Shown here: in pieces, positions 41,522 to 57,614 of the stretch
Layout of the letters: each line of letters opens with the position of its first letter
Position numbering within the stretch: the first letter of the stretch is position 1
Assembly: GCA_017962745.1 (NCBI GenBank)
Contig: JAGCUR010000017.1
Span: forward strand, 1-64,000
Origin: Bacilli bacterium
GTDB lineage: Bacteria; Bacillota_I; Bacilli_A; ML615J-28; CAG-698
DNA length: 64,000 nucleotides
Reading direction: 5' to 3'
Notes under the pieces: model-generated
The model's input: the letters and a program-made list of their open reading frames with translations, nothing else
Told to the model about the DNA's origin: nothing
Databases searched by the model: none
Made by a program: the position numbers and the translations under genes

Positions 41522-42160
41522 TTATGCTTTATATCTAGCAAATCTTATAATCATTATTAAACCAACTACTACCATTAGAATACCTACGCCTAATGAAAAA
41601 TAGTTATTTATGAATAATAAGATATCAATTTCTTTATATTCTAAAATAATACGTGATACATATTCTTCAATAATTACTAAGTCAGCTAAAGCAGATACAA
41701 ATACCATTTCTTTTAAGCCAATTACCATAATGTCTCTCTTTTCTAAAGCACCTCTTAGCTTTAGACAAGACATTATAAACATGATTAGCATAAATAAGAT
41801 TAGTAATGATCCTATTAAGCCACTATATGTTTTATCATTAGAGATATCAATACCATTTACTTTTAGTACTACAAAAGCAATAAAGATAAAGGCATATACT
41901 AAAATGGCAATAGCCATTTTTAAATAAGCCTTTTTCTTCTTTTCTCTAGTTTGTAAAACATTCTTTACAAATACAACTTTGCAAATAAATACCATCAAAG
42001 TAGAGATAGATGCTATTAGTAATACTAATTATTTTGTTAAGAAGCCTAAGCCAAATTTATATAGGAAGCTTACTAAAGTGATTAAAGATGTGAAAAAGGT
42101 TGACCTTTTTAACTTCTTTTTCTCACTTAGTTGTTTTCTTTCTTCTTTTGTCTTTCTCAT
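41522..42160 (-). pseudogene. Six-helix membrane protein broken by an in-frame TAA
   Basis: The gene starts at 42160, where its ATG overlaps the glyA TGA (ATGA). It runs 43 codons ([20 protein letters not shown], then a first hydrophobic helix) to a TAA at 42029-42031. The same frame continues without any shift (LVLLIASISTLMVFICK onward) to 41522, giving 211 residues with about six membrane helices if the stop is ignored. The coupling to glyA and the clean frame show that it was one gene. I do not recognise the family. A sequencing error or a recent mutation are both possible; the second part alone could start at a Met but lacks a ribosome site. Confidence 0.65.
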
Positions 42161-43395
42161 CTATCCATTACCTTTTCTAGTGGGTATTTCTTGGTTAAGT
42201 TTAATACTTTTTCGTGAATCTTAGCAAGTTTAGCTTCATCATCCTTATTTTTAATTGCTTCATCGATTAAAGTGGCAATTTCTTTCATATCGGCTTCTTT
42301 AAAGCCTCTGGTAGTGATGGCAGCTGTACCCATTCTGATACCTGATGCTACCATTGGTGGCAGGCTATCGAATGGTACTGTATTTTTATTAACTGTAATA
42401 CCAACTCTATCAAGTAACACTTCAACTTCTTTACCCGTAAGGCCACAAGAAGCATACATATCAACTAATAATAAGTGATTATCAGTGCCACCTGTTACTA
42501 CTTTATAGCCTTTTTCGATTAATGCATTGGCTAGCGCTTTCGCATTACTAACTATACATTTTGCATATTCTTTAAAACTATCTTTAAGTGCTTCTCCAAA
42601 ACATACAGCTTTACCAGCAATCACATGCATTAAAGGTCCACCTTGAATGCCAGGGAATAAGGCAGAATTGACATTTTTATATACTTCATAATTATTGGTT
42701 AAAATTAAACCGCCTCTTGGACCTCTTAGTGTCTTATGCGTAGTTGATGTTACGATATCCGCATAATCAACTGGGTTTTGGTGAATACCTGCGGCAACTA
42801 AACCTGCAATATGCGCCATATCAACCATCAAATAAGCGCTAACTGAATCAGCGATTTGTCTAAAGCGCCTAAAATCAATCTCACGCGCATATGCACTAGC
42901 GCCAGCTACGATTAGTTTTGGTCTAAATTCTAAAGTAATACGCTCGATCTCATCATAATCAATCATTTGCGTATCTTTACTTACTTGATAATATCTAAAT
43001 TCATAATCTTGACCAGAAAATGATAATTTATGACCATGAGTTAAATGGCCACCATGCTCTAGTGCCATTGCTAAAACTTTATCACCTTTATTAAGGAGCG
43101 CGCGATATGCTGCCATATTGGCCTGACTACCAGAATGGGGCTGCACATTAACGTATTTTACGTTAAATAGGGCTTTAGCTCTATCTTTTGCCAATTGTTC
43201 AATATCATCTACAAATTCGCATCCCCCGTAATATCTTCTTCCGGGATAACCTTCAGCGTATTTATTAGTAAGGATTGATCCTACTGCTTCTAATACATCA
43301 TTTGATACATAGTTTTCACTAGCTATTAATTCGATATTGTCTTCTTGTCTAGTCTCCTCGTTTTTAATTATTCTTAAAACTTCTAAATCTTTCAT
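42157..43395 (-). CDS. glyA: Serine hydroxymethyltransferase
   Basis: A PLP enzyme that turns serine and tetrahydrofolate into glycine and 5,10-methylene-tetrahydrofolate. The 412-residue chain has the [12 protein letters not shown] start, the [14 protein letters not shown] block and the PLP Lys in [14 protein letters not shown]. It lies nine bases after mtnN and ends in TGA overlapped by the membrane gene. It links the operon to one-carbon supply. Confidence 0.96.
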
Positions 43396-43403
43396 TTACA
43401 TCC

Positions 43404-44120
43404 TCAAATATTCTCTAACAAATATAGACTAATTTTTAATCCCATCTTATCGGCATCACTAATTGATGCTTCAAATACATCGTCTTGATTTTCCATCCCA
43501 ATTACGTCAGATATGTACCTAATTGCTAAGAAATTATTTCCCATCAACATACAGCTTTGCGCATATGCTGCTGACTCCATATCAAACGCCATTATGTTTA
43601 AATCACTAAAGTGATCACTAATTAGTTTATCGCATTTTTCTTTATCAACCATGAACGATTCATTGGTGCAAATATCACCATATTTTAACTTAAAATCGCT
43701 TTTCTTAAGTAATTTAACTAATCTTTCATCACCACTAAATTGCAAAGGACACTTGCTCATTTGGCCGTAGCGATATTTTGATTCAAAGACACTTAAGTTG
43801 ACATCGCCATATAGACAGTTAAGTCCAACTACGATATCGCTAACATTAACTTTACTAGTGCCACCAGCAGTTCCTAAGTTAATAATGTAATCATCTTTAG
43901 TTAGATTAAATGTCTGATTTAAATTAGAAATTAACAAAGCACTAGCAACTCTACCTACGCCACTAATACCAATTATTACTTCAATTCCTCTTTCTAAATC
44001 ATAATCACCAATTGTATATTCGTATATACTAGATTTGATTACTTTTTTATTTACTAGAGGAATGAACCTCGTTAGCGTATCTAGTTCTTCTTGCATTGCG
44101 GCAATGATTACGAATTTCAT
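43404..44120 (-). CDS. mtnN: 5'-Methylthioadenosine/S-adenosylhomocysteine nucleosidase
   Basis: It removes adenine from methylthioadenosine and S-adenosylhomocysteine, the waste products of SAM use. The 238-residue protein has IIAAMQEELD at the start (catalytic Glu), NLGTAGG for the ribose, FDMESAAYAQ (the Glu that grips the ribose) and the catalytic Asp of RYISDVIG. It overlaps ribF by four bases. Confidence 0.93.
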   Translation of the reverse strand: MKFVIIAAMQEELDTLTRFIPLVNKKVIKSSIYEYTIGDYDLERGIEVIIGISGVGRVASALLISNLNQTFNLTKDDYIINLGTAGGTSKVNVSDIVVGLNCLYGDVNLSVFESKYRYGQMSKCPLQFSGDERLVKLLKKSDFKLKYGDICTNESFMVDKEKCDKLISDHFSDLNIMAFDMESAAYAQSCMLMGNNFLAIRYISDVIGMENQDDVFEASISDADKMGLKISLYLLENI

Positions 44121-45031
44121 TTTCTAACCTCTTCAATATCTTTTAATATTTGTGCTCTTAGCTCTTCAACCGAATTAAATTTAATCTCATCTCTAATAAA
44201 CTCTTCAAACTCCACAAGCATAAATTTGCCATATAAATCTTGATCAAAATCAAGAATATGGACTTCGAGAGTTCTAGTATTATTTAGCCCCACGGTTGGG
44301 TTTAGGCCGATATTACAAATAGCTTTATGCTTTTCGTGATCAATAATGGCATTACATTTATAAACACCAGGTTTAATACAAAAATCATTTTCTGCTAGTT
44401 TAATATTAGCAGTCTTAATTCCTAGCTTTGAGCCAATTTTGTTACCTTTAGTTACAATCCCACCCATCTTAAATGTTTTTAGTAATAACTTATTAGCTTC
44501 ATCAATATTACCTTCAATTAAGTAGTTACGGATGTCTTCACTTCCAAGCTTACTTCCATCTTCTTTTCTTAAAGCAGGGATTATAAATAAGTTAGATGTA
44601 ACTTCACCTAAAGTTTTAACTGATCCTTGACCATATTTACCATATCTAAAATCTTCGCCGACAACAATCGCATCCATTTCGGCTAAAAAGCGCGCATTAA
44701 ATTCTTGATATGGCATATTAACTAATGTTTCATCACATCTGATGATGCAGCAGTAATCAATACCTAACTGTCTAAAAGCATTTATTCTTTCATCTAATAG
44801 TAATAAATAACCTTTATTTTCGCGTTTTTTTAAAACATAATCAGGATGTGGATCAAAAGTAAAGACGACAGTTTTAGCGCTAAACTTCGCTGCTTCTTTC
44901 GCTAAAGCGCCGAAGATAAGTTTATGACCTTTGTGTATGCCATCAAAGACACCAATTGTGCATACCAAATTTGTGTCATTGCTCATCTTATCTTTAAATA
45001 CATCATTACTATATAAATATATTAATTCCAT
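44117..45031 (-). CDS. ribF: Bifunctional riboflavin kinase/FAD synthetase
   Basis: It phosphorylates riboflavin to FMN and adenylates FMN to FAD. The N-terminal nucleotidyltransferase part (about 1-180) has GVFDGIHKGHKLIF and VVGEDFRYGKYGQG; the C-terminal kinase part (about 185-304) has GNKIGSKLGIKTANI and CNIGLNPTVG. It overlaps truB by ten bases; a truB-ribF order is common in bacteria. Confidence 0.95.
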   Translation of the reverse strand: MELIYLYSNDVFKDKMSNDTNLVCTIGVFDGIHKGHKLIFGALAKEAAKFSAKTVVFTFDPHPDYVLKKRENKGYLLLLDERINAFRQLGIDYCCIIRCDETLVNMPYQEFNARFLAEMDAIVVGEDFRYGKYGQGSVKTLGEVTSNLFIIPALRKEDGSKLGSEDIRNYLIEGNIDEANKLLLKTFKMGGIVTKGNKIGSKLGIKTANIKLAENDFCIKPGVYKCNAIIDHEKHKAICNIGLNPTVGLNNTRTLEVHILDFDQDLYGKFMLVEFEEFIRDEIKFNSVEELRAQILKDIEEVRK

Positions 45032-46551
45032 ACTCTTCTCGCTTTATACCTATCCATATTTTCATCATAATAATAAATTGCTAATAATTTATTATTATGA
45101 ATTAAAGCAACTTCATTATCATTTGGATAATTTAGTTCATCCTTCTTTAACATCTTGCCATCGATTACTTTATTATAAATAAAATCATCGACTTCAATCT
45201 TTTCTAAATCGATTAAATCAATAATTTCAATAATCTTATAATTATTGTTTTTAATATCATCAATACTAAAAGCTTCTTCAACACTAAACTTACCTGATTT
45301 AGTTCTAAACAATTCTTTTACGATACCATAAGAATTTAATCTAATTCCTAGATCATTACATAATGATCTAATGTAAGTACCTTTAGATACTTTAGTTTTA
45401 AACTTAAATTCAAATTCTTCATTAATATCGCTTAATCTTTCAATGCTTAAAATATTAATTTTTCTTGCATCAATCTCTATTTCTTTATTATTTCTAGCTA
45501 AATCATATAATTTTTTACCATCTACTTTAATAGCAGAATACATTGGTGGTACTTGTAATTGTTCACCTAAAAATGAATTTAGTGTTTCATCTAATAACTT
45601 ATTAGTGACATTTACTTCCTTTTTATCTACTACTTTACCATCAATATCATATGTATCAGTTTTAATTCCAAGTTTACAAGTAGTTATATATTCTTTATCT
45701 TCAGCTAAGATATAATTAGATAACTTCGTAGCTTCATTAAGTAAAACAATTAAAACTCCGGTTGCAAGCGGGTCTAATGTCCCCGCATGACCGATTTTTT
45801 CAATAACTAGTCCATTTCTAGTTAATTCATGTTTAATATCAATTAGAGCATCTTGGCTCGTAATTCCTTTTGGCTTATTATAAATAATAGCGCCATTAAC
45901 TAGTAAATGATTATTATTTACGATATAGTTTTCTACTTCTTTGGCGCTATTAAAGAATAAATCAGCACCCTTTAATTCACATTTCTTACGATAACCCCAA
46001 AGGCATGCTCCCATTAATAAACTCGCATTCTTGGCAGTTAATAAATCGATATCAGAATCTCCTAAATATAAAACATCATCTTTATCTATTTTAAAATAAT
46101 CTAAAACTTGATTGGTGGCATCTATTTCTGGTTTTAGTTTAACACCATCTTTACTACCCGCTACATAATCAAATAAGCCATTAAAATAATGATTAATTAC
46201 TGCTTCACTATCAGCTTGTGGCTTATTTGATAAAACAGCTAACTTTATACCAGCTTGTTTTAATGTTTTTAATAAATGCATAATCCCTTGATATGGATTA
46301 GTGTGAATCATATTATGTTCTTTATAATAATTAATATAATCTGCTTTTACTTTATCAAAAAAGTTAGAATTATCCTTAACTGCTTTTTTAATTAAATGAT
46401 CAACGCCACTTCCTACCATATATAAGCATTCTTCAACACTTACTTCTTCTAGGTTATTACCTTTTAGTGCATAGTTAAGGGCGATATTAATATCTTTAAT
46501 TGTATAAAGTAATGTGCCATCTAGATCAAAGATAACAAGCTTTATATCCAT
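45022..46551 (-). CDS. truB: HAD phosphatase fused to tRNA pseudouridine synthase TruB
   Basis: Residues 1 to about 212 are a HAD phosphatase of the phosphoglycolate phosphatase type: nucleophile Asp in FDLDGT, VLSNKPQ (motif II), LKPEIDA (motif III Lys) and YLGDSDIDLLTAKNA (motif IV). Residues about 217-509 are TruB, which makes pseudouridine-55 in tRNA: NGAIIYNKPKGITSQD, catalytic Asp in GHAGTLDPLATG (about residue 257), PPMYSAIKVDGKKLYDLAR and GTYIRSLCNDLG. There is no stop, ribosome site or start codon at the junction. GAGG precedes the ATG. I know of no standard HAD-TruB fusion; both halves look complete. Confidence 0.9.
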   Translation of the reverse strand: MDIKLVIFDLDGTLLYTIKDINIALNYALKGNNLEEVSVEECLYMVGSGVDHLIKKAVKDNSNFFDKVKADYINYYKEHNMIHTNPYQGIMHLLKTLKQAGIKLAVLSNKPQADSEAVINHYFNGLFDYVAGSKDGVKLKPEIDATNQVLDYFKIDKDDVLYLGDSDIDLLTAKNASLLMGACLWGYRKKCELKGADLFFNSAKEVENYIVNNNHLLVNGAIIYNKPKGITSQDALIDIKHELTRNGLVIEKIGHAGTLDPLATGVLIVLLNEATKLSNYILAEDKEYITTCKLGIKTDTYDIDGKVVDKKEVNVTNKLLDETLNSFLGEQLQVPPMYSAIKVDGKKLYDLARNNKEIEIDARKINILSIERLSDINEEFEFKFKTKVSKGTYIRSLCNDLGIRLNSYGIVKELFRTKSGKFSVEEAFSIDDIKNNNYKIIEIIDLIDLEKIEVDDFIYNKVIDGKMLKKDELNYPNDNEVALIHNNKLLAIYYYDENMDRYKARRVWN

Positions 46552-46669: not shown

Positions 46670-47128
46670 TTACTTATTCTTTTTCTCAAGTTTTTCTCTA
46701 AATTCTCTAACAGTTTCTACTGTTAAAGGTTTTAGATTATAGTAGTTGTCATCGTTTCTTTCAGCTAAATAGCATGTATAATTACGTCTTTCAATATATT
46801 CTGCTATGGCTTCGTTTAATAACGAATTAATACTGATGCCTTCTTTTTTTGCGCGTTCGTCAACTTGTTTGTGTAAGGTTTTAGACATCCTCAAAGTTAC
46901 TTTACCACTATAATAATCATATTCATGCATAGAAGGTTCTGGGACAGCAATTTTTAGTTCCTTACATGCTTCAATATATGCATCTAAGTTTCCTCTTGCC
47001 TCTTCAATAGCTTCTTCAATTGTATCACCAACACCGATAACTGTTTCAAAATCAACATATTTAACTACATATTGTTTTCCATCAGCGCAATAATCTGTAA
47101 ATACTTCAAAGCGATAATCTCTTTCCAC
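46670..47128 (-). CDS. hicB: HicB antitoxin with ribbon-helix-helix domain
   Basis: The 152-residue antitoxin has the HicB partial RNase H fold at the N terminus (YVVKYVDFETVIGVGDTIEEA) and a ribbon-helix-helix DNA-binding domain (about 80-115, KVTLRMSKTLHKQVDERAKK). A charged tail of about 30 residues follows. It starts with GTG sharing a base with the hicA stop (TAGTG), behind GGAG. It should neutralise HicA and repress the pair through the palindrome upstream. Confidence 0.9.
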   Translation of the reverse strand: MERDYRFEVFTDYCADGKQYVVKYVDFETVIGVGDTIEEAIEEARGNLDAYIEACKELKIAVPEPSMHEYDYYSGKVTLRMSKTLHKQVDERAKKEGISINSLLNEAIAEYIERRNYTCYLAERNDDNYYNLKPLTVETVREFREKLEKKNK

Positions 47129-47379
47129 TATTTTTTCTCCTTTTTATATATTATTTCATTTGCAAGTTTCACATATGATGATTTAACAATTTTACCATTA
47201 ACAGTTGGTATACTAATTACTACTTCGCTGCTTTCTTGATAAAAAACATGATGCGATCCTTTTATAGATATTCTTTTAAACCCATTAATTTCTAGATACT
47301 TCATGAATTCAACAAAATCAACCTCCACCGGAAGCGGATATGTCGTGTATTTTTTAATAAGTTTTTCTTTTTGGCTCAA
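47128..47379 (-). CDS. hicA: HicA mRNA interferase toxin
   Basis: The 83-residue protein has the double-stranded RNA-binding-like HicA fold with the catalytic His in GFKRISIKGSHHVFY and the conserved VNGKIVKSSYVKLA end. HicA cuts mRNA independently of translation in known systems. It starts with TTG, supported by GAGGT six bases upstream; the next Met would trim the first 25 residues. Toxin-first order is usual for hicAB. Confidence 0.88.
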   Translation of the reverse strand: MSQKEKLIKKYTTYPLPVEVDFVEFMKYLEINGFKRISIKGSHHVFYQESSEVVISIPTVNGKIVKSSYVKLANEIIYKKEKK

Positions 47380-47585: not shown

Positions 47586-50500
47586 TTATCTAACAATGAA
47601 GTCAGGAACAACTTTCGCATTAGTATAAATTACGAAGTTGCTTGCATATGAAGAAATGATTGGATCATCTTCATTAAACAATGAAACAGATACTGTAACT
47701 TGATAATTTGAATATAATAAGTTACTTGCTTCAAATGCTGATCCTGTCTTTACTGTCATTGTAATAATTGGGAATGTGATGTAAGCACCATCATCTTCTA
47801 AAACCGATAGTGGCAACTCGATTGTACCAGCTTGCATTTGGGCAGCTGTAAGAGTTGTAGAACCGATCTTAATTGAAGTTATGTATGTGCTTAAATCTAA
47901 TGGTTCACCGTATGATGCTACCCCTGTCTCTGAATCATGTACTTTTTGTTTCAATGTGAATGAAACAGTAGCACTAGTATATCCTTCAACTTGTAATCTA
48001 ACCGATGTAGTATCTAATACTGCTAATAGATCAAAGGATGATGCCACAATGCCGCTTGGATTTAGGGCATTGATACCCATTGATGTGATATTACCTTGTC
48101 TATCTTCAACAGGATTCAAATATAGCGAAGCATATTCAGGAACATCTTCTGAGTAATATAGTCTAGCCGGTGTTTCGTTTGATGAAACAGTATTTTTACT
48201 TGCAGCCGTAGCTGAACGGATAAATGACAAGTTAGAAAAACCAGTTACAGTTGTACCATTATCTGGAAAGTTATCGCTTTGACCTGGGAACTGAGCACTA
48301 ATAGCTGCACTTGTACTATATGTAAGTGTTACTGTAGCACTAACATCAAAACTATTTCCGGTAGCAAAATAACTACTTAAACTACTTGAAACAAATTCAG
48401 CGTAGTTATTATTAATTCTAATGTCATCAGTTCCATATGCAGTTGTTATTGTTTGAGCGTTATCGACGCCATTTTCAGTTACTACATAATCGATTGTATA
48501 ACTTCCGGCACCAGCTGGGCTACCAGCTATAACTTTTACAATATTAGCTCCATCATATCTATTTAGTTGTACTAAGAAGCTTTGATAAATTGGAGTTGAT
48601 GCTATTAAGCTTTGTAGATATGATCTAATGTCAGCATCCATTCCTTCTTCTACAGTACGCAAGCCAAATGATGCACTCATATTGATTTCTAAGACGTTGT
48701 TTTCAAGTGTCATAATCGTTGTTTGATTTGGTGTATCACTTGATACGTCAAAATCAGTATGGTCAAAAATCTTACCCATAACTAAGTGAACCATTGTATG
48801 GCCACCTGTATCTAAGATCTTTGATGGATATTCAGTTTCCGAGAAACTTGCAGGAGATGTTATTAGATAATAATGGAATAAGCTATAGTCTGCTGAAGTC
48901 TCAGTGAAGAATGTTAAATAATAACTTTCTTCAATGTAATCTCCAGTAACTGTAATTGAATACTTAGTTCCTGTATCTTCACTTGTAGCTAGTTTGTAAT
49001 AAGTATTTCCTACTTTTACAGTAGCATGAGCTTCATCTGTCTCTACAAACATTCTATCATCGCCAGTTGATGATACTGTAATTTGCATCATATCGCATAA
49101 ATATTTAGGTTGGAAGGCTTCACCCGTAATTGAGAAGCTTCCATTGCTATAAACCATTGTCTTAAACTTCGATAAGTCTAGCGTTACGCCATCCGCAAGC
49201 AATGCATCGCCTAACCTTGCATAATATACTTTACCATCATTATCAGGTCCTGATAAAGATAACATCGTATTTGCATTGAGGCTAGATAATGTGTCACTCG
49301 TATTAGCTTTATATAAATATAAAGATTTTTGATAGAAACGCATTACGTTTTCGCCTGAGTTAATAGCGCTAGTCCATTCAGCTGCTGTTCTTGAATATGT
49401 ATATTTGAAGTAAGCAGTTACTGGACTACCGATATTTTCAATTAAAGCTTGACCATATTTATCAGTATATTCATCTTCTAAATATGTTGTTCCACCTTGA
49501 ACTGCAATATCAAAGCTATATGATAATACTTTCTTAACAAATACTGGAATGTAAACATGGAATGCTACATTAGCTGGTCTAGTAGGGTTATAGTAGCTAA
49601 TATCAATTAATGAGAATTGCATCTTACCACTATCAAACACGTTAAAGATTGTGTAGAATCCAGTTTCATCTCTTTGTAAGCTAGCACCAACTGTGCTAGA
49701 TACAAATTTATTTGTAGATGGATCATATGTCATCTTATAGATTGATACTGAGAAATGACCAGGCATATCATATGCATAATCATATGTAGAGTTAGTAATC
49801 ATTCTAATATAACTATTGATGTACATATTAGTATTACTATCTTCTAGTAATAATACTGGGAAGTCGATATCTAAGTATCTTGCGCCTTCTACTTGAACGA
49901 TTTCATCGCCAAACATTGATAACTTGCCTAAAGCAATTTGGGCATTATCATAGTTTGTAGCCCCACTACTACCAGTGTAGTATTTATTACCTACATAACT
50001 ATAAATATCGGCGTTATTGTTAGTCGGGCTATCGCTTAGAATATCGCTAATTGGTAAGCTATCAATTGTAATCTTACCACCAACTGGAGTTGCGAAGGCA
50101 TCACCGATGAAGTCGTATCCACCAATTGTTACTTTTGGATTAACAGTAACGTATGGTTCCTCGGCTACTACGTTTGCTGAAGTATTACCGATATTTGAAA
50201 AAGCATTGTTATCTAGGTGCATATTGTAATCAGTAAAGATAATTTGACCATCACCAAAGTTTTGCTTTGTATTATTTACAGTTACTTGGAATGTACTAGT
50301 ACCAAATTCATTGTTATTTGTTCCTGCTTTTCCGCATATCTTTCCGCAGTATTCATTATCACCAGTATATTTAATTGAAATACCAACGATTCTAATTGAA
50401 GAGCCGGCTCTATTGTTACCTACTACTTCACCAATTGATTGGTTATTAGCAGCAGTAGATTTATCAGTTACGCCGCCTTCTAGATGTTTAATAACATTAT

Positions 50501-53500
50501 CTTCAAGCAAAATGTTGTATCCACTGATTTTAACTCTGTTGTTGTTCGTATCTGATGGATTACATTCTGTTGCTGTGTTATTTACATTAGTATTAGCGGT
50601 TGTTGGGTGATTACCACCAGTTAGAGCACCAGCTATTCCACCAGTTCCACTATAATTATTCGAATTAGAACCATAATTAGTAATAATATTACATTCCTTA
50701 ATATAAATATTATTTAATTCATATGGCCAGTTAGTAGTTTCAGTATCTGATTTATTACTACCTGATACTAGTCCAAACATACCACCGGCATTACATTCTA
50801 TATTAGTAGTACCAGTATAAGTAGAAATGATATCGTAATTATGAATATTAACGTTCTCTAAGTCCATATAGAAATAGTCACGTCCAATTGCATAACCGAT
50901 TATTCCACCGGCATGTCTTGTACCTTTAATATAATAATTATCAGAATCACCATTTTCACCGTTAATCGTTACACCATCAAATAACACATTATATTTTTGG
51001 GTAAGTTTACCGATGATTCCACCGGCTGAATTAGCCGTGATATTGATCTTTGAAATTGAAGAATTAGTTATATTAATTAGGGCACCATGGGCTGATCCGA
51101 TAAATCCACCAGCATAGTTATTGTATGAAGGATTAGCAACACTATCATTACGTACTTTGATCACTGATGGTGTATCACCGCCTAGACCAAGAACATTGAT
51201 GTTACTAATATAAATTCTTCTTCCGCTACTACCTTGGATCTTATCGCCACCACCTTTACGTGCTGACCATGAAGATCCGATGATTCCACCAGCGCCAGTA
51301 ATGGCGTTTGCGCCATAGGCAAGAGGTTTTTCATTTGGCACACCACACTTCATTTCAATATTTTTAATATAAAGGTCAGTGCCGCTTGCTTTACCAGCAA
51401 TTTCTATTTTTTGACCCCAAATTCTACCAATTAAACCACCAGCTTGTAAGCCACCGACTACATTGACATAACCATAGGTTGTAGCTGAAGAATCATAATT
51501 GATGTAGTTTGATGCCAGGTCAGAATTATCAGCTCCCTTTTGCTCTAAAAGACCAATTAGGCCACCGGCTGTCTTAGCACCTTCTACTTCAAGTTTATTA
51601 AATGTAACATTATTGATAGTAATAATGTTTATTGTACAACCAATTAAACCACCAACTGATAATGTTGTAGCGTAGTTGACTGAATTTCCATCAATTGTAC
51701 CTTTGATCTTACTGTTACCATCTTGGTAATTATCACCATCATATTTATTGAAGTAATAATTACTTCTAGTACCATCAATAGAATATACATCGTAGAATAC
51801 GCTACCTGCTAATATTAAATTATTGAAAGTAGCACGAGTATTAGTACTATTAAGTTGGATGTAGTTAAACAAACCAAATCCGGCAGTTGATGTATCACCA
51901 CTGCTATCATATGCGCGGTATTTTGATACATATGCATGTGCATATTCTAAATAGCGCATATGTAGTGTAACTTGATATGCATATTTAGTTCCGTTTGATG
52001 CGCCATTTAGTGTTGATACACGCAATCTTAAATTTCCATTATCATAATAAATATTACCGATTCCTCTAAAGCCAGCAGGCACATCGCAATCACCTGTAAT
52101 ATTAACGGTAACTCCATCGTTATATGCTAGCATACGTGCAGGATAAGTACCCGAATCCGCAACTGTATATGCGCTAATGATATAAGGAGTCTTTGTTAAG
52201 CCACTACCATATAGCGAGTCTCCTTTAGCAAGTGTATAATCAGCTGCATCTGTACTACCGATAGATGTATATTTGGCTGTACCTCTTGCAGTAGTATCTG
52301 CTCTGTATGCTTGCCAGAAATCACTTAAGCCTGCATATGCCTTACTAGCCCCGCTTGCAGAACCAGCACCTGAATTTACGATAGCACTAAGGATAAACAT
52401 TGACTGTCCATTAGGCACATTTATAGTTTTACCATCGCTACTTACGCTAAGTTTATCACTATTTGAAGATGGTACTACTAAGTCAGCGATTGTGTAATTC
52501 TTTAAACCGTTCTTTAAAGTAGCTGTATCTTCAGTTCCATGGTATGTAGTAGTCTCATGGAATGCATAACCTGCTATTACTCTACCGATAATTGGGTTAA
52601 AGTATAAATAGCCTTCATTAGCAACTCTAGAATCTACTGTAGATGTAATACCTACATTTGATGATGTCATTCCTCTAAAGATAACTCCACCATTAAGTAG
52701 TGTACCTACATATCCACCAACTGGAATTAATGTAACATAGCGTGAAGTTGAAGCTGCTGTTAAGTTAAATGTAGTATTAGTGAATGTTACATTTACCGTA
52801 TCGATAATTGTATCTCCACCCATAACTTTAGCAATTAAAGCACCGTATGTTTCAATACCACCACTATAAGCATATAAATCAGAGCCAAGTGGAGCAGCTA
52901 AAGTAATAGTTACGGAGTTAACATCCACATTGATACCTTTGATTACACACCCCGTTGAATTATCAATTAAAGGTTTTTGTGATTTATTGGTAATGGTTGC
53001 ACCATTTCCAAAAATAACACCCTTAAATGGATAATCCGCATCACGTCCAAATGAATCATACGCATTGCTAACTAGTTCAGTATAGTTAGCTAGCTCGATA
53101 TCAGTTGTAATCTTGTAATATGCACCTGACAAGTATTGTCTAACTTTCGCATTAGCGATAGTTGTAGATCCATCTGAGAAGTTATCTAAGCCGAATGAAA
53201 ATTCGCTCTTAGTATAGTTTACACTAGCTGGTACATAATTATAAGCAATCGAATTATTGCTATTTGTAAGTGTACTAGGTAGTTCTATTTTTACGCTACT
53301 ACCTACATCAACACCAGCCATGATGTTTGAAATTATTGCTAATTGGTCGCCGGACTCAATTAAGTATGGGTCACCATACTTACCAGCACCTTGAATAGCT
53401 GTACTAAATGATGAGTTAATTCTTAATTCATGATAATTATTATTAGCTGCTGTATATACATATGGTAAGAAACCACTTGCAAATGAATACTCAGTTGTTG

Positions 53501-56500
53501 CCTCATATGTAGTTGGGTGAACATAATACTCACTAGCTGCATATTTCTTTTGACTATTTTGGTATTCAGGTGATACTGTTATTTCTTTTCCATAAGTAAC
53601 ATTATGGATAGCTGTAGTTGAGTTAGACCAATCATCAGTGATTTCAAAGCTATATGCGCCTGAACTTTCACCATAATATGCAAATGAATTAAGTAATGTT
53701 GCTCTACTAAAGATTGATTTAGTAGTGCCATATACTGTATCCATGTTGCCAAGTGAATTAACTGCGCTTCTACCATCGAACTTAATACCACTAAATGTTA
53801 AGTATATTGCTCTTGCATCAGCGCTACCAACATTACCGATTAAGCTTGATGCGGCATAAATTGATGCAAAGCCTGTATAACTATCTTGACTAGCATTAGT
53901 TAAAGTTAATTTTGTGTTTTTACCAACTTTATTAACGATTAGTGGTGCATATGCATTAGTAGTTAAGTCTGTACCGTCACTATTAACAATATGTAAGCCA
54001 CTTAAAGTTAAGTCGTTAAGTGTAATTCTAGCTGTGCTTGTATCCGAGTTACCAATTGTATTGGTAATGATAAAGCCACAGAATGAATCACTTATTTTTG
54101 GTACATTACCGCTTAATGTAGATGAAGTTATTTGAATTGTACCTAAATAATTTCTAAATAAGCCTGTATGCATCAAATAATGTTGGTTATCATTTGCTCT
54201 AGTAGAGCGCTTAGCGTTACTACCAGTATAAGGTAAGCTAACATTTGCTTCTGTTGCCTTATTATCTAATTTGATAGTTGCGTTATTAAATACTAAGTTC
54301 ACGCCACTCACATCAATTGGATAATATGATAGGCCGCTCATGTCTAAATCACCACTAAAAGTAGTGTCACTAACGCTAAACCAACCTGCTAAATCAGTAT
54401 AAGCATATCTATTTACTGACCAAACTAGGAATTTATATTTGCCAGTTGATGTATTACTTCTAGCATATGCTAGATTGTAATAATATCTAGTATTAGCATT
54501 TAATGCTTCAGCATCATTTTTACCATAAGTAGTTTTATTTAAATATGCATTAGCTGTAGTTGTAATTGATATTATAGAATTACCGTTATTAGTAATATCT
54601 TGGCTATTATATCTACTATCAGCTACTATTTCATCATAAACTGAAAACTTTGGATCAGTTGTAAAAGTTAAGCCGCTAATATTGTAGTTTGTAGATGTAT
54701 CATCTACATCTAGATATAAGGCTGATCCATAAGTATCAGCAGTCTTATGAGTTTTATTAGCTACAAATCCAAATGTATTACTAGTACTAACTGGTAGTGT
54801 ATAACTTACTGTACCTAAGCTAATATTATTAATTACCATATGACCAGTAGCAACTTGAGTTAAGAAACCAAAGTTATTGCTACTTCCTTGGGCAGCAACA
54901 GTTGCATTAACTGTTAAGCCATTAATATTTGTATCTAAGCTTATCCATTCTTTACCTAAAACACCACCGAAGGCATTATTCTTTGAATATCCTTTAACAT
55001 CTAGGTTAACTGTTACATTTTCAATATTAACAGTTCTAGATCCTTTTACATATTGAGTATTTGATGTATTAGCGATTAAGCCACCAAATACAGCTGGTCT
55101 ATTAGTATTAGCTGGATAATCATCGGTACCAGTACCATAATAATGTAAGCCGGCAGTTATCGAGCTAAAGTTAATAGTTTGATTGCTACCGCTATTCAAA
55201 TAGCCAATAGCACCACCAACATATGATTCATTTGTGGCATTATCAGAAATATCGATAATTGTAGGATATAGGTTAGATGAACCATTAATTGTTAAATTAA
55301 GGTTACTATCTACAGCAGCACCTATAGCTCCACCAATCTTAGAAATAACATTAGAGCTTGTAGCAAGGTTTACTGTAAAACTACTTGTCAGATTAGTGAT
55401 AGTTACGGTTCCACTTGCACTAGCAACTACACCTGCTTTTAAGTTAGTTGTTGCTTGACGAATGTTAAAGTAACCATTAACTGTTAAATTTTTAATTGTA
55501 GCATTATGTGCTTTCGCAAATAAACCATTTTGTAAATGGTTAATAATATAGCCATCACGTGTAGTAGTACCAATTGCAGTTCCACTGCTAGTTAGACCAT
55601 ATACTTCACCTGTTGCCATTGTGATAGTACGGTTATTACCATCAAATGTTCCACTAAATGTCATTCCAGCATCAGAATCGTTATCACGAGTTAAGCCAGT
55701 TAGACCAGTATTTGCTAAATTAATATCATTAGAAAGTGATAAGCTAGCATTTAAGATATTGCTACTTGAATTAGATGAAGCAAATCTTAAAGCGCCATTA
55801 GTTACATCAGTTCTAGTATTTAGGCTAATGTTTAAAGCAGTTTTCGCAAAATCTACGATTGTTCTCATACTTGCAACTTCTGCTTTTACAGTTACTGTAT
55901 GATTAGCATCATCAACTGTAAATAAATCTTCTTCACTTAAAGTTGATCCATCTAATCTTAATACTTGTCCCCAAGCATAAATGTCATCTAGAGTTTTATC
56001 ATCAGTAGTATTGCGTTTAAATGCCCAGCCATTATTAGTGCCTTCACCATCACCGATGGCATAAACTAATGATGCATCACGATATTTCATAATTTGGCCG
56101 CTATTCCAATCTACATATGAAGTATTAGATAAATCAGTTAAGCCTTTAAGTCTTAAGACACCTGTTGGTCCATTACCGATAAGAGCTGCTTCTACTTTTC
56201 CACTACCTTTTACAGTAATTGTTCCTGAAACATCTATAAATGGTCCTTTGTTACCCATTGAACCAATTAATCCACCATTGATTACACCTTCTGGTAAGTT
56301 TGTAGTACAGTTGCTTATGTTAACATATGATGCTGTACTAACATAACCAATTAAGCCGCCTGTAGCTTCGCCACCTGAAGATTTAATCTTCGATTCAGTA
56401 TTTGTAATATTAAATGCATAAGATAGGCTAGTTGATTGGTATTCTCCACAAACACCACCACGATATTTACCATTAGTGGCATTAAATTCAATAGCTTCAT

Positions 56501-57614
56501 TTGCGAAGTTTCCATCAAATGCAAATGTGCCACCGGCATTAATTAACATACCATAGATTGCACCAGATCTATTTGTAGATGAAACATTTAAATCTGGATC
56601 AATACTAAATGTATTTAGTAAAGATACTGATCTAGATGCATTAGTGTTTTTATAATAACCAAATACACCACCAGCACCATTATTAGAAGTAATTGTTCCA
56701 TTTATTTCATAATCAGTAACGCCATCTGCAAATTCAATCTCTACATTTTCTGCATGACCAACTAAGCCACCGGCATAGCTAGTAGCAGTGATTGTAGATA
56801 CTTTAGTATTATTATTTGATAATAATTTTAGTGTAGAATTGGCTTTCATTTGACCAACTAAGCCACCAGCGTGGCCTGATGTTGTTGAAACAGTAATTGG
56901 GTTACCGCTTGAAGTTGTTTTAACTTCTAGTGTTGCTCCTTCTCCTACTGTTCCGCAGATTAATCCTACATTTCCACTTGATACTACATTTAATGTAGAT
57001 GAGTTATTGAATTCAATCTCTACGCTTGCTCCATCGGCAATATCGCCGATTACGCTATCGTAGTTATATGCTTCAAGTCCACTACCAGCACCATCGATTG
57101 GCATCAATGTTACTTTCCATTTAGCTTTACTTGATCCAGCTAAAACGTGATTAGCAAATAGTGATCCGCTTGTAAGTAATAGTGGGTCAGGATCTACGTT
57201 TGCTCTTTCACGGATAATCTTTACTTCGCCACTTCCAAGTAACTTTAAGTCAGTTGTTACATAATCAAACAACGGACAGTTATATAAGTGGAATGTATCG
57301 ATTCCTGATGCAGGCGTTACGATAATACCTTCGAATGGTCTATCAGCTGAACCTAAACTGATAAAACCATCAGTAGTAACTACACGACCACTATTAATAG
57401 TAATTTCTAGTCGGTCACTTGGGTTTCTTGCGCCTGATTTATATGCAGCTGCATAAGTATTAAAAGCTTCGGCTGAATTGATTACATATGTTTGGGCTGC
57501 TTCAGCCTTAACAAATGGTAAATCAATAAATCTTGATAAGCCAATTAATGCAACGCAAATAAATGCGATAAAAATATTTAGTTTTATTAATTTTTTAGCA
57601 ATCTTGCTTCTCAT
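47586..57614 (-). CDS. 3,342-residue surface protein with GLUG-type repeats
   Basis: A 10-kb gene for a secreted giant. A signal peptide (residues about 1-40, ending near VKAEAAQ) precedes a long repeat region from about 200 to 2,430. Many short blocks there read AGGLVG, GGLIG, GGIIG or GGFIG between Thr/Asn/Ser-rich strands, as in GLUG-motif beta-solenoid proteins. The last 900 residues look like beta-sandwich domains without GLUG blocks. No LPXTG motif, S-layer repeat or C-terminal membrane helix is seen, so attachment is unexplained. It shares an operon with three small secreted proteins. A fibre, adhesin or sheath role is possible; nothing proves it. TAGGTGG precedes its ATG. Confidence 0.8.
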   Translation of the reverse strand: MRSKIAKKLIKLNIFIAFICVALIGLSRFIDLPFVKAEAAQTYVINSAEAFNTYAAAYKSGARNPSDRLEITINSGRVVTTDGFISLGSADRPFEGIIVTPASGIDTFHLYNCPLFDYVTTDLKLLGSGEVKIIRERANVDPDPLLLTSGSLFANHVLAGSSKAKWKVTLMPIDGAGSGLEAYNYDSVIGDIADGASVEIEFNNSSTLNVVSSGNVGLICGTVGEGATLEVKTTSSGNPITVSTTSGHAGGLVGQMKANSTLKLLSNNNTKVSTITATSYAGGLVGHAENVEIEFADGVTDYEINGTITSNNGAGGVFGYYKNTNASRSVSLLNTFSIDPDLNVSSTNRSGAIYGMLINAGGTFAFDGNFANEAIEFNATNGKYRGGVCGEYQSTSLSYAFNITNTESKIKSSGGEATGGLIGYVSTASYVNISNCTTNLPEGVINGGLIGSMGNKGPFIDVSGTITVKGSGKVEAALIGNGPTGVLRLKGLTDLSNTSYVDWNSGQIMKYRDASLVYAIGDGEGTNNGWAFKRNTTDDKTLDDIYAWGQVLRLDGSTLSEEDLFTVDDANHTVTVKAEVASMRTIVDFAKTALNISLNTRTDVTNGALRFASSNSSSNILNASLSLSNDINLANTGLTGLTRDNDSDAGMTFSGTFDGNNRTITMATGEVYGLTSSGTAIGTTTRDGYIINHLQNGLFAKAHNATIKNLTVNGYFNIRQATTNLKAGVVASASGTVTITNLTSSFTVNLATSSNVISKIGGAIGAAVDSNLNLTINGSSNLYPTIIDISDNATNESYVGGAIGYLNSGSNQTINFSSITAGLHYYGTGTDDYPANTNRPAVFGGLIANTSNTQYVKGSRTVNIENVTVNLDVKGYSKNNAFGGVLGKEWISLDTNINGLTVNATVAAQGSSNNFGFLTQVATGHMVINNISLGTVSYTLPVSTSNTFGFVANKTHKTADTYGSALYLDVDDTSTNYNISGLTFTTDPKFSVYDEIVADSRYNSQDITNNGNSIISITTTANAYLNKTTYGKNDAEALNANTRYYYNLAYARSNTSTGKYKFLVWSVNRYAYTDLAGWFSVSDTTFSGDLDMSGLSYYPIDVSGVNLVFNNATIKLDNKATEANVSLPYTGSNAKRSTRANDNQHYLMHTGLFRNYLGTIQITSSTLSGNVPKISDSFCGFIITNTIGNSDTSTARITLNDLTLSGLHIVNSDGTDLTTNAYAPLIVNKVGKNTKLTLTNASQDSYTGFASIYAASSLIGNVGSADARAIYLTFSGIKFDGRSAVNSLGNMDTVYGTTKSIFSRATLLNSFAYYGESSGAYSFEITDDWSNSTTAIHNVTYGKEITVSPEYQNSQKKYAASEYYVHPTTYEATTEYSFASGFLPYVYTAANNNYHELRINSSFSTAIQGAGKYGDPYLIESGDQLAIISNIMAGVDVGSSVKIELPSTLTNSNNSIAYNYVPASVNYTKSEFSFGLDNFSDGSTTIANAKVRQYLSGAYYKITTDIELANYTELVSNAYDSFGRDADYPFKGVIFGNGATITNKSQKPLIDNSTGCVIKGINVDVNSVTITLAAPLGSDLYAYSGGIETYGALIAKVMGGDTIIDTVNVTFTNTTFNLTAASTSRYVTLIPVGGYVGTLLNGGVIFRGMTSSNVGITSTVDSRVANEGYLYFNPIIGRVIAGYAFHETTTYHGTEDTATLKNGLKNYTIADLVVPSSNSDKLSVSSDGKTINVPNGQSMFILSAIVNSGAGSASGASKAYAGLSDFWQAYRADTTARGTAKYTSIGSTDAADYTLAKGDSLYGSGLTKTPYIISAYTVADSGTYPARMLAYNDGVTVNITGDCDVPAGFRGIGNIYYDNGNLRLRVSTLNGASNGTKYAYQVTLHMRYLEYAHAYVSKYRAYDSSGDTSTAGFGLFNYIQLNSTNTRATFNNLILAGSVFYDVYSIDGTRSNYYFNKYDGDNYQDGNSKIKGTIDGNSVNYATTLSVGGLIGCTINIITINNVTFNKLEVEGAKTAGGLIGLLEQKGADNSDLASNYINYDSSATTYGYVNVVGGLQAGGLIGRIWGQKIEIAGKASGTDLYIKNIEMKCGVPNEKPLAYGANAITGAGGIIGSSWSARKGGGDKIQGSSGRRIYISNINVLGLGGDTPSVIKVRNDSVANPSYNNYAGGFIGSAHGALINITNSSISKINITANSAGGIIGKLTQKYNVLFDGVTINGENGDSDNYYIKGTRHAGGIIGYAIGRDYFYMDLENVNIHNYDIISTYTGTTNIECNAGGMFGLVSGSNKSDTETTNWPYELNNIYIKECNIITNYGSNSNNYSGTGGIAGALTGGNHPTTANTNVNNTATECNPSDTNNNRVKISGYNILLEDNVIKHLEGGVTDKSTAANNQSIGEVVGNNRAGSSIRIVGISIKYTGDNEYCGKICGKAGTNNNEFGTSTFQVTVNNTKQNFGDGQIIFTDYNMHLDNNAFSNIGNTSANVVAEEPYVTVNPKVTIGGYDFIGDAFATPVGGKITIDSLPISDILSDSPTNNNADIYSYVGNKYYTGSSGATNYDNAQIALGKLSMFGDEIVQVEGARYLDIDFPVLLLEDSNTNMYINSYIRMITNSTYDYAYDMPGHFSVSIYKMTYDPSTNKFVSSTVGASLQRDETGFYTIFNVFDSGKMQFSLIDISYYNPTRPANVAFHVYIPVFVKKVLSYSFDIAVQGGTTYLEDEYTDKYGQALIENIGSPVTAYFKYTYSRTAAEWTSAINSGENVMRFYQKSLYLYKANTSDTLSSLNANTMLSLSGPDNDGKVYYARLGDALLADGVTLDLSKFKTMVYSNGSFSITGEAFQPKYLCDMMQITVSSTGDDRMFVETDEAHATVKVGNTYYKLATSEDTGTKYSITVTGDYIEESYYLTFFTETSADYSLFHYYLITSPASFSETEYPSKILDTGGHTMVHLVMGKIFDHTDFDVSSDTPNQTTIMTLENNVLEINMSASFGLRTVEEGMDADIRSYLQSLIASTPIYQSFLVQLNRYDGANIVKVIAGSPAGAGSYTIDYVVTENGVDNAQTITTAYGTDDIRINNNYAEFVSSSLSSYFATGNSFDVSATVTLTYSTSAAISAQFPGQSDNFPDNGTTVTGFSNLSFIRSATAASKNTVSSNETPARLYYSEDVPEYASLYLNPVEDRQGNITSMGINALNPSGIVASSFDLLAVLDTTSVRLQVEGYTSATVSFTLKQKVHDSETGVASYGEPLDLSTYITSIKIGSTTLTAAQMQAGTIELPLSVLEDDGAYITFPIITMTVKTGSAFEASNLLYSNYQVTVSVSLFNEDDPIISSYASNFVIYTNAKVVPDFIVR

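Follow-up and report, generated by a model that had tools for sequence, protein, structure and literature searches.

A HAD-family phosphatase and the tRNA pseudouridine synthase TruB encoded as one protein in a genus of Bacilli, apparently by fusion of operon neighbours

In the window, the 64,000-nucleotide stretch of DNA analysed in this study, a single open reading frame on the minus strand (45022-46551; 509 codons and 509 aa, ATG start, no internal stop) encodes a HAD phosphatase at its N-terminal end followed by TruB, both complete. The fusion is true, conserved within its genus and taxonomically narrow, and it looks like a by-product of gene packing rather than a new function. It probably represents a lineage-specific fusion of neighbouring operon genes that left two independent enzymes on one chain. 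The fused gene, its parts and the genes downstream of it are the following:

45022-46551, minus strand: fused HAD-TruB gene, 509 aa; the fusion is also present, without indels, in a relative of the same genus
46021-46536, minus strand: HAD_2 phosphatase domain, residues 6-177 (Pfam PF13419, E 3.8e-32; same position in the whole-genome scan)
45901-45948, minus strand: residues 202-217, covering the last part of the C-terminal HAD helix and the junction, without in-frame start codon and with a dip in model pLDDT
45022-45900, minus strand: TruB half, residues 218-509 plus stop (TIGR00431), with the ancestral TruB start Met replaced
45370-45813, minus strand: TruB_N domain, residues 247-394 (Pfam, E 8.1e-52)
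44117-45031, minus strand: ribF, bifunctional riboflavin kinase/FAD synthetase (PF01687, PF06574; TIGR00083 above cut-off), sharing 10 bases with the fused gene
43404-44120, minus strand: mtnN-type MTA/SAH nucleosidase gene (TIGR01704, 106.8 versus 73.8 bits), overlapping ribF by 4 bases
42157-43395, minus strand: glyA, serine hydroxymethyltransferase (PF00464, E 1.9e-169), downstream of the mtnN-type gene

The first-pass annotation of this DNA had proposed one protein with complete HAD and TruB domains, and the profile searches bear this out. HAD_2 scored 112.3 bits in the HAD half (cut-off 23.8) and the NCBIfam TruB equivalog TIGR00431 219.3 bits in the fused protein (cut-off 151.45); TruB_N was also above its cut-off, and the C-terminal domain TruB_C_2 lay just under it (28.2 versus 29.3 bits, 43 of 66 positions covered). 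HAD enzymes carry four catalytic motifs (DxD, S/T, K and DxxxD), and the catalytic Asp of TruB sits in G(T/A)LDPLATG. The HAD motif residues D9, D11, S108, K140, D165 and D169, together with TruB D260, are identical across the three fused proteins found in the order, and the TruB half contains the GTLDPLATG and SKGTYIRSLC motifs. Because each genome yielded one TruB match and the fused protein is the sole TruB found in the source genome of the window (G000), the TruB half is almost surely the tRNA Psi55 synthase. A gene of this kind, possibly annotated as phosphoglycolate phosphatase, conceals the only TruB of its genome and makes a case for automatic annotators. The TruB half also shares its Foldseek fold match with known TruB enzymes (PDB 1k8w, 1r3e), but the fused protein differs from them in approximately 217 extra N-terminal residues, which form the HAD enzyme, in the loss of the ancestral start Met and in a 5-residue insertion before GHAGTLDP.

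Judging from its sequence, the HAD half resembles a phosphatase of the phosphoglycolate-phosphatase-like group, one of the possibilities raised by the first-pass annotation, with a putative substrate assignment. Its closest PDB sequence matches were 2hi0, 2nyv and 2yy6, labelled as phosphoglycolate phosphatases (putative for 2hi0), and those of the C-terminal part were TruB structures. It is like Gph-type HAD enzymes (2hi0, 2nyv) in its HAD_2 match and in its best PDB sequence and fold matches, but unlike them it is fused to TruB and every phosphoglycolate phosphatase equivalog that it matched scored under the cut-off (NF009695, 115.6 versus 225 bits; TIGR01449, 88.8 versus 180 bits). We take the HAD half to be C1-capped. 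Three further, weaker HAD_2 matches were found in G000, one of them a YjjG-family pyrimidine nucleotidase above cut-off. An AlphaFold2 model of the fused protein, built from a 9-row alignment and given without PAE, comprises two confident domains (mean pLDDT 85.2) with a low pTM of 0.57, and its pLDDT falls to 69 at residues 211-220, the linker. The model is consistent with two domains arranged like beads on a short string, and Foldseek matched one half to TruB structures and the other to phosphoglycolate-phosphatase-like structures.

The same fused frame, 70% identical and without indels, is present in a separately deposited metagenome assembly of the same genus, g1 (G001, JAFZWP010000014.1). 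In the order set of 43 genomes, 37 of which had a TruB match, the fused frame was found in three: G000, G001 and G014, the latter from another genus (g14, which also contains G023). The open frames containing TruB measured 519, 519 and 542 aa in these three, versus 172-332 aa in the other 34. Across 392 genomes of the phylum, PF01509 matched in 371, and among the roughly 150-160 best-scoring matches listed, only the G000 open frame exceeded 400 aa. The truB gene of G018 (L003, G018:C98) holds an in-frame TAG, which may reflect a pseudogene, recoding or an assembly error.

Within the family (28 genomes), three genomes carry the fusion, 12 have adjacent separate genes, eight have the two genes in separate places, and in five (G008, G009, G016, G021 and G027, which include incomplete drafts, one at 61% completeness) one or both genes were missing or cut by a contig end. 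In the 12 genomes with adjacent genes, the HAD gene lies directly upstream of truB, overlapping it, abutting it or at most 26 bases away. Separate genes in close relatives, which the first-pass annotation had regarded as evidence against a single protein, are thus found at the family level, whereas at the genus level the fusion is conserved. The order HAD-truB-ribF is constant in all 15 fused or adjacent genomes, with mtnN next wherever the contig reaches (the G025 contig stops inside the gene after ribF), and the maps of these 15 genomes show neither a truB-ribF nor a ribF-mtnN fusion. The scanned upstream neighbours vary: glycerate kinase, beta-eliminating-lyase-like, HD-domain and DNA_binding_1 (O6-methylguanine methyltransferase-type) genes, and one without a Pfam match. 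Among 11 split HAD/truB junctions, five overlap by 4-8 nt, three abut (0-1 nt) and three are spaced by 15-26 nt; the twelfth (G022) shows a 4-nt overlap on the gene map. In G006 (L051:5078-6805), the HAD domain is fused to the upstream glycerate kinase in a frame of 575 aa (PF02595, residues 4-356; HAD_2, residues 364-543) and truB is separate. Two other genomes of the G006 genus, G019 and G025, have the HAD and glycerate kinase genes as separate neighbours.

Comparison of G000 with G001 by the NG86 method, without indels in either half, gave dN 0.226 and dS 0.733 for HAD and dN 0.191 and dS 0.783 for TruB, that is, dN/dS of about 0.31 and 0.24, respectively, with the uncertainty that attaches to dS near 0.75. 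The differences at codon positions 1, 2 and 3 were 0.23, 0.145 and 0.37 in HAD and 0.209, 0.113 and 0.377 in TruB. These values indicate purifying selection on both halves. The 17 codons of the junction differ at 17.6% of the amino acids between the two genomes.

How often the fusion arose was addressed by comparing the three fused genomes with G023, in which the genes are split with an 8-nt overlap. G014 and G023 pair in the trees, with support of 100/96 on TruB and 91/83 on TruB+RibF+MTAN, and genus g1 is placed beside G006 in the TruB-only tree and beside g14 in the combined tree. The hypothesis that the three fused sequences form a clade to themselves was weakly rejected (AU p 0.049 for TruB and 0.031 for TruB+RibF+MTAN). 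A 5-residue insertion before GH(A/C)GTLDP (45802-45816 in the window) is found only in G000, G001, G014 and G023 among 30 TruB rows. Since this insertion unites g1 with the two g14 genomes, including the split G023, a single fusion followed by re-splitting in G023 stays viable and would be as parsimonious as two fusions, with two changes each. We lean towards two independent fusions, because the G023 junction resembles the ordinary ancestral overlap.

The explanation that we favour starts from an ancestor with the order HAD phosphatase-truB-ribF-mtnN, in which the border between HAD and truB would have been an overlap or a short spacer. Small mutations at this border would have abolished the stop codon of the HAD gene and the start codon of truB and produced one frame; the event emerges from the comparison of relatives and the exact mutations are inferred. 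Joined by the short linker, the two domains would each retain their fold and their catalytic residues and, most likely, function independently of one another. The fusion would be tolerated, and perhaps slightly useful by fixing synthesis at 1:1, so that a shared pathway would be unnecessary. The fusion has survived one speciation or more, at 30% protein divergence, and has kept its junction conserved, which would not be required of a purely neutral accident and speaks against the explanation that we favour. Translational coupling of operon neighbours through short overlaps is treated in a published study (PMC10666635). The present case is like other fusions of coupled operon neighbours in that the genes of relatives are adjacent, often overlapping or abutting, and that the stop and start were lost. 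It differs from them in the particular HAD-TruB pair and in the fusion of HAD on its other side, to glycerate kinase, in another genus. The titles and opening parts of abstracts retrieved by a literature search, whose coverage mostly excluded subscription papers, name no HAD-TruB fusion; this domain pair may be previously undescribed, but the type of event is well known.

HAD and truB were both found in 23 family genomes, and their adjacency or fusion in 15 of these is a possible hint of a link between the two enzymes and counts against the explanation that we favour. It would fit a functional coupling in which the HAD half dephosphorylates PsiMP from tRNA turnover, FMN or another TruB-linked metabolite and the fusion was selected for this reason, the more so as ribF shares the arrangement. 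HAD enzymes acting on PsiMP are known, as are HAD-riboflavin kinase fusions in plants. PsuG (PF04227) is encoded in 21 of the 28 family genomes, G000 included, which would also suit this proposal. However, it occurs in 13 of the 15 adjacent or fused genomes versus six of the eight non-adjacent ones; its distribution does not track the HAD-truB arrangement and therefore provides no argument for PsiMP. Moreover, G000 encodes both psuG and the separate YjjG-type pyrimidine nucleotidase elsewhere, and the nearest solved structures of the HAD half are of the phosphoglycolate-phosphatase type. Further evidence comes from 80 HAD homologue loci obtained by an alignment-based contig scan, out of at least 472 confirmed relatives, from Bacteroides, Lachnospiraceae, Bacilli and others. 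In 75 of them neither TruB nor RibF lay within the fetched stretch, some stretches ending at contig ends, and the HAD protein therefore appears to have no general tie to TruB; the five loci with TruB and RibF all belong to metagenome assemblies of Bacilli or Acholeplasmataceae. Together with the split neighbours in relatives and the HAD-glycerate kinase fusion, these loci leave the connection of tRNA modification to nucleotide housekeeping, floated in the first-pass annotation, unsupported. We consider functional coupling unlikely, and it is very unlikely that the HAD half is a phosphatase of PsiMP or a close nucleotide, with one protein making and recycling tRNA pseudouridine and the fusion selected for that. 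The psuG gene of G000 (Indigoidine_A; L154:4458-5411, G000:C8) lies beside PRK13670-type nucleotidyltransferase and Mrp/ApbC-like genes, and no kinase match was found among its two scanned downstream neighbours.

If the two enzymes share no pathway, as in the operon-fusion explanation, the series of short spacers, overlaps, downstream fusion and upstream fusion seen in this family is a natural illustration of how multi-domain proteins may arise from a packed operon, and a warning against inferring function from a 'Rosetta stone' fusion.

The single-chain reading depends on where translation of TruB begins. No ATG, GTG or TTG occurs in frame within codons 181-260 of the fused protein, in line with the first-pass annotation, which saw no start at the junction. 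At the position of the ancestral TruB start Met, the codon is Val (GTT) in G000 and Ala (GCT) in G001, neither g1 species having a start there, and G014 has no in-frame ATG, GTG or TTG at this position either. The closest in-frame start to the junction is the ATG of codon 180, within the HAD part. Initiation there would give all of TruB with a 38-residue tail, and TruB might be made also, or only, from this internal site. Nevertheless, the site lies inside the conserved HAD fold, and its pairing with the anti-Shine-Dalgarno sequence is weak (-2.5 kcal/mol versus -5.9 for the real start). Of 41 scored ORF starts of the window, several of them possibly miscalled since the longest ORF was taken, 30 pair more strongly than this ATG. 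Production of TruB from an internal start is, in our judgement, quite unlikely.

That the HAD half is catalytically dead and serves only to provide TruB with a scaffold or an RNA-binding appendage is highly improbable: apart from the fusion itself nothing speaks for it, and it conflicts with the retention of all HAD motif residues and with the dN/dS of the HAD half. That an assembly or sequencing artefact joined two genes is barely credible, even though metagenome assemblies account for the relatives' genomes that could be identified and the G018 truB contains a TAG, since a second species shares the frame with conserved junction codons and the codon-position differences are coding-like over both halves; the shared frame and the purifying selection on both halves exclude artefact or chance for practical purposes.

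Upstream of the fused gene, HicB-like antitoxin and HicA-like toxin genes with a one-base overlap (46670-47379) sit between it and a giant ORF, and no HicA/HicB match was found within the 4.5-kb locus compared in G001. The giant ORF (47586-57614, minus strand), just upstream of the pair, comprises 3342 aa in one frame and apparently encodes a repetitive secreted or surface protein.
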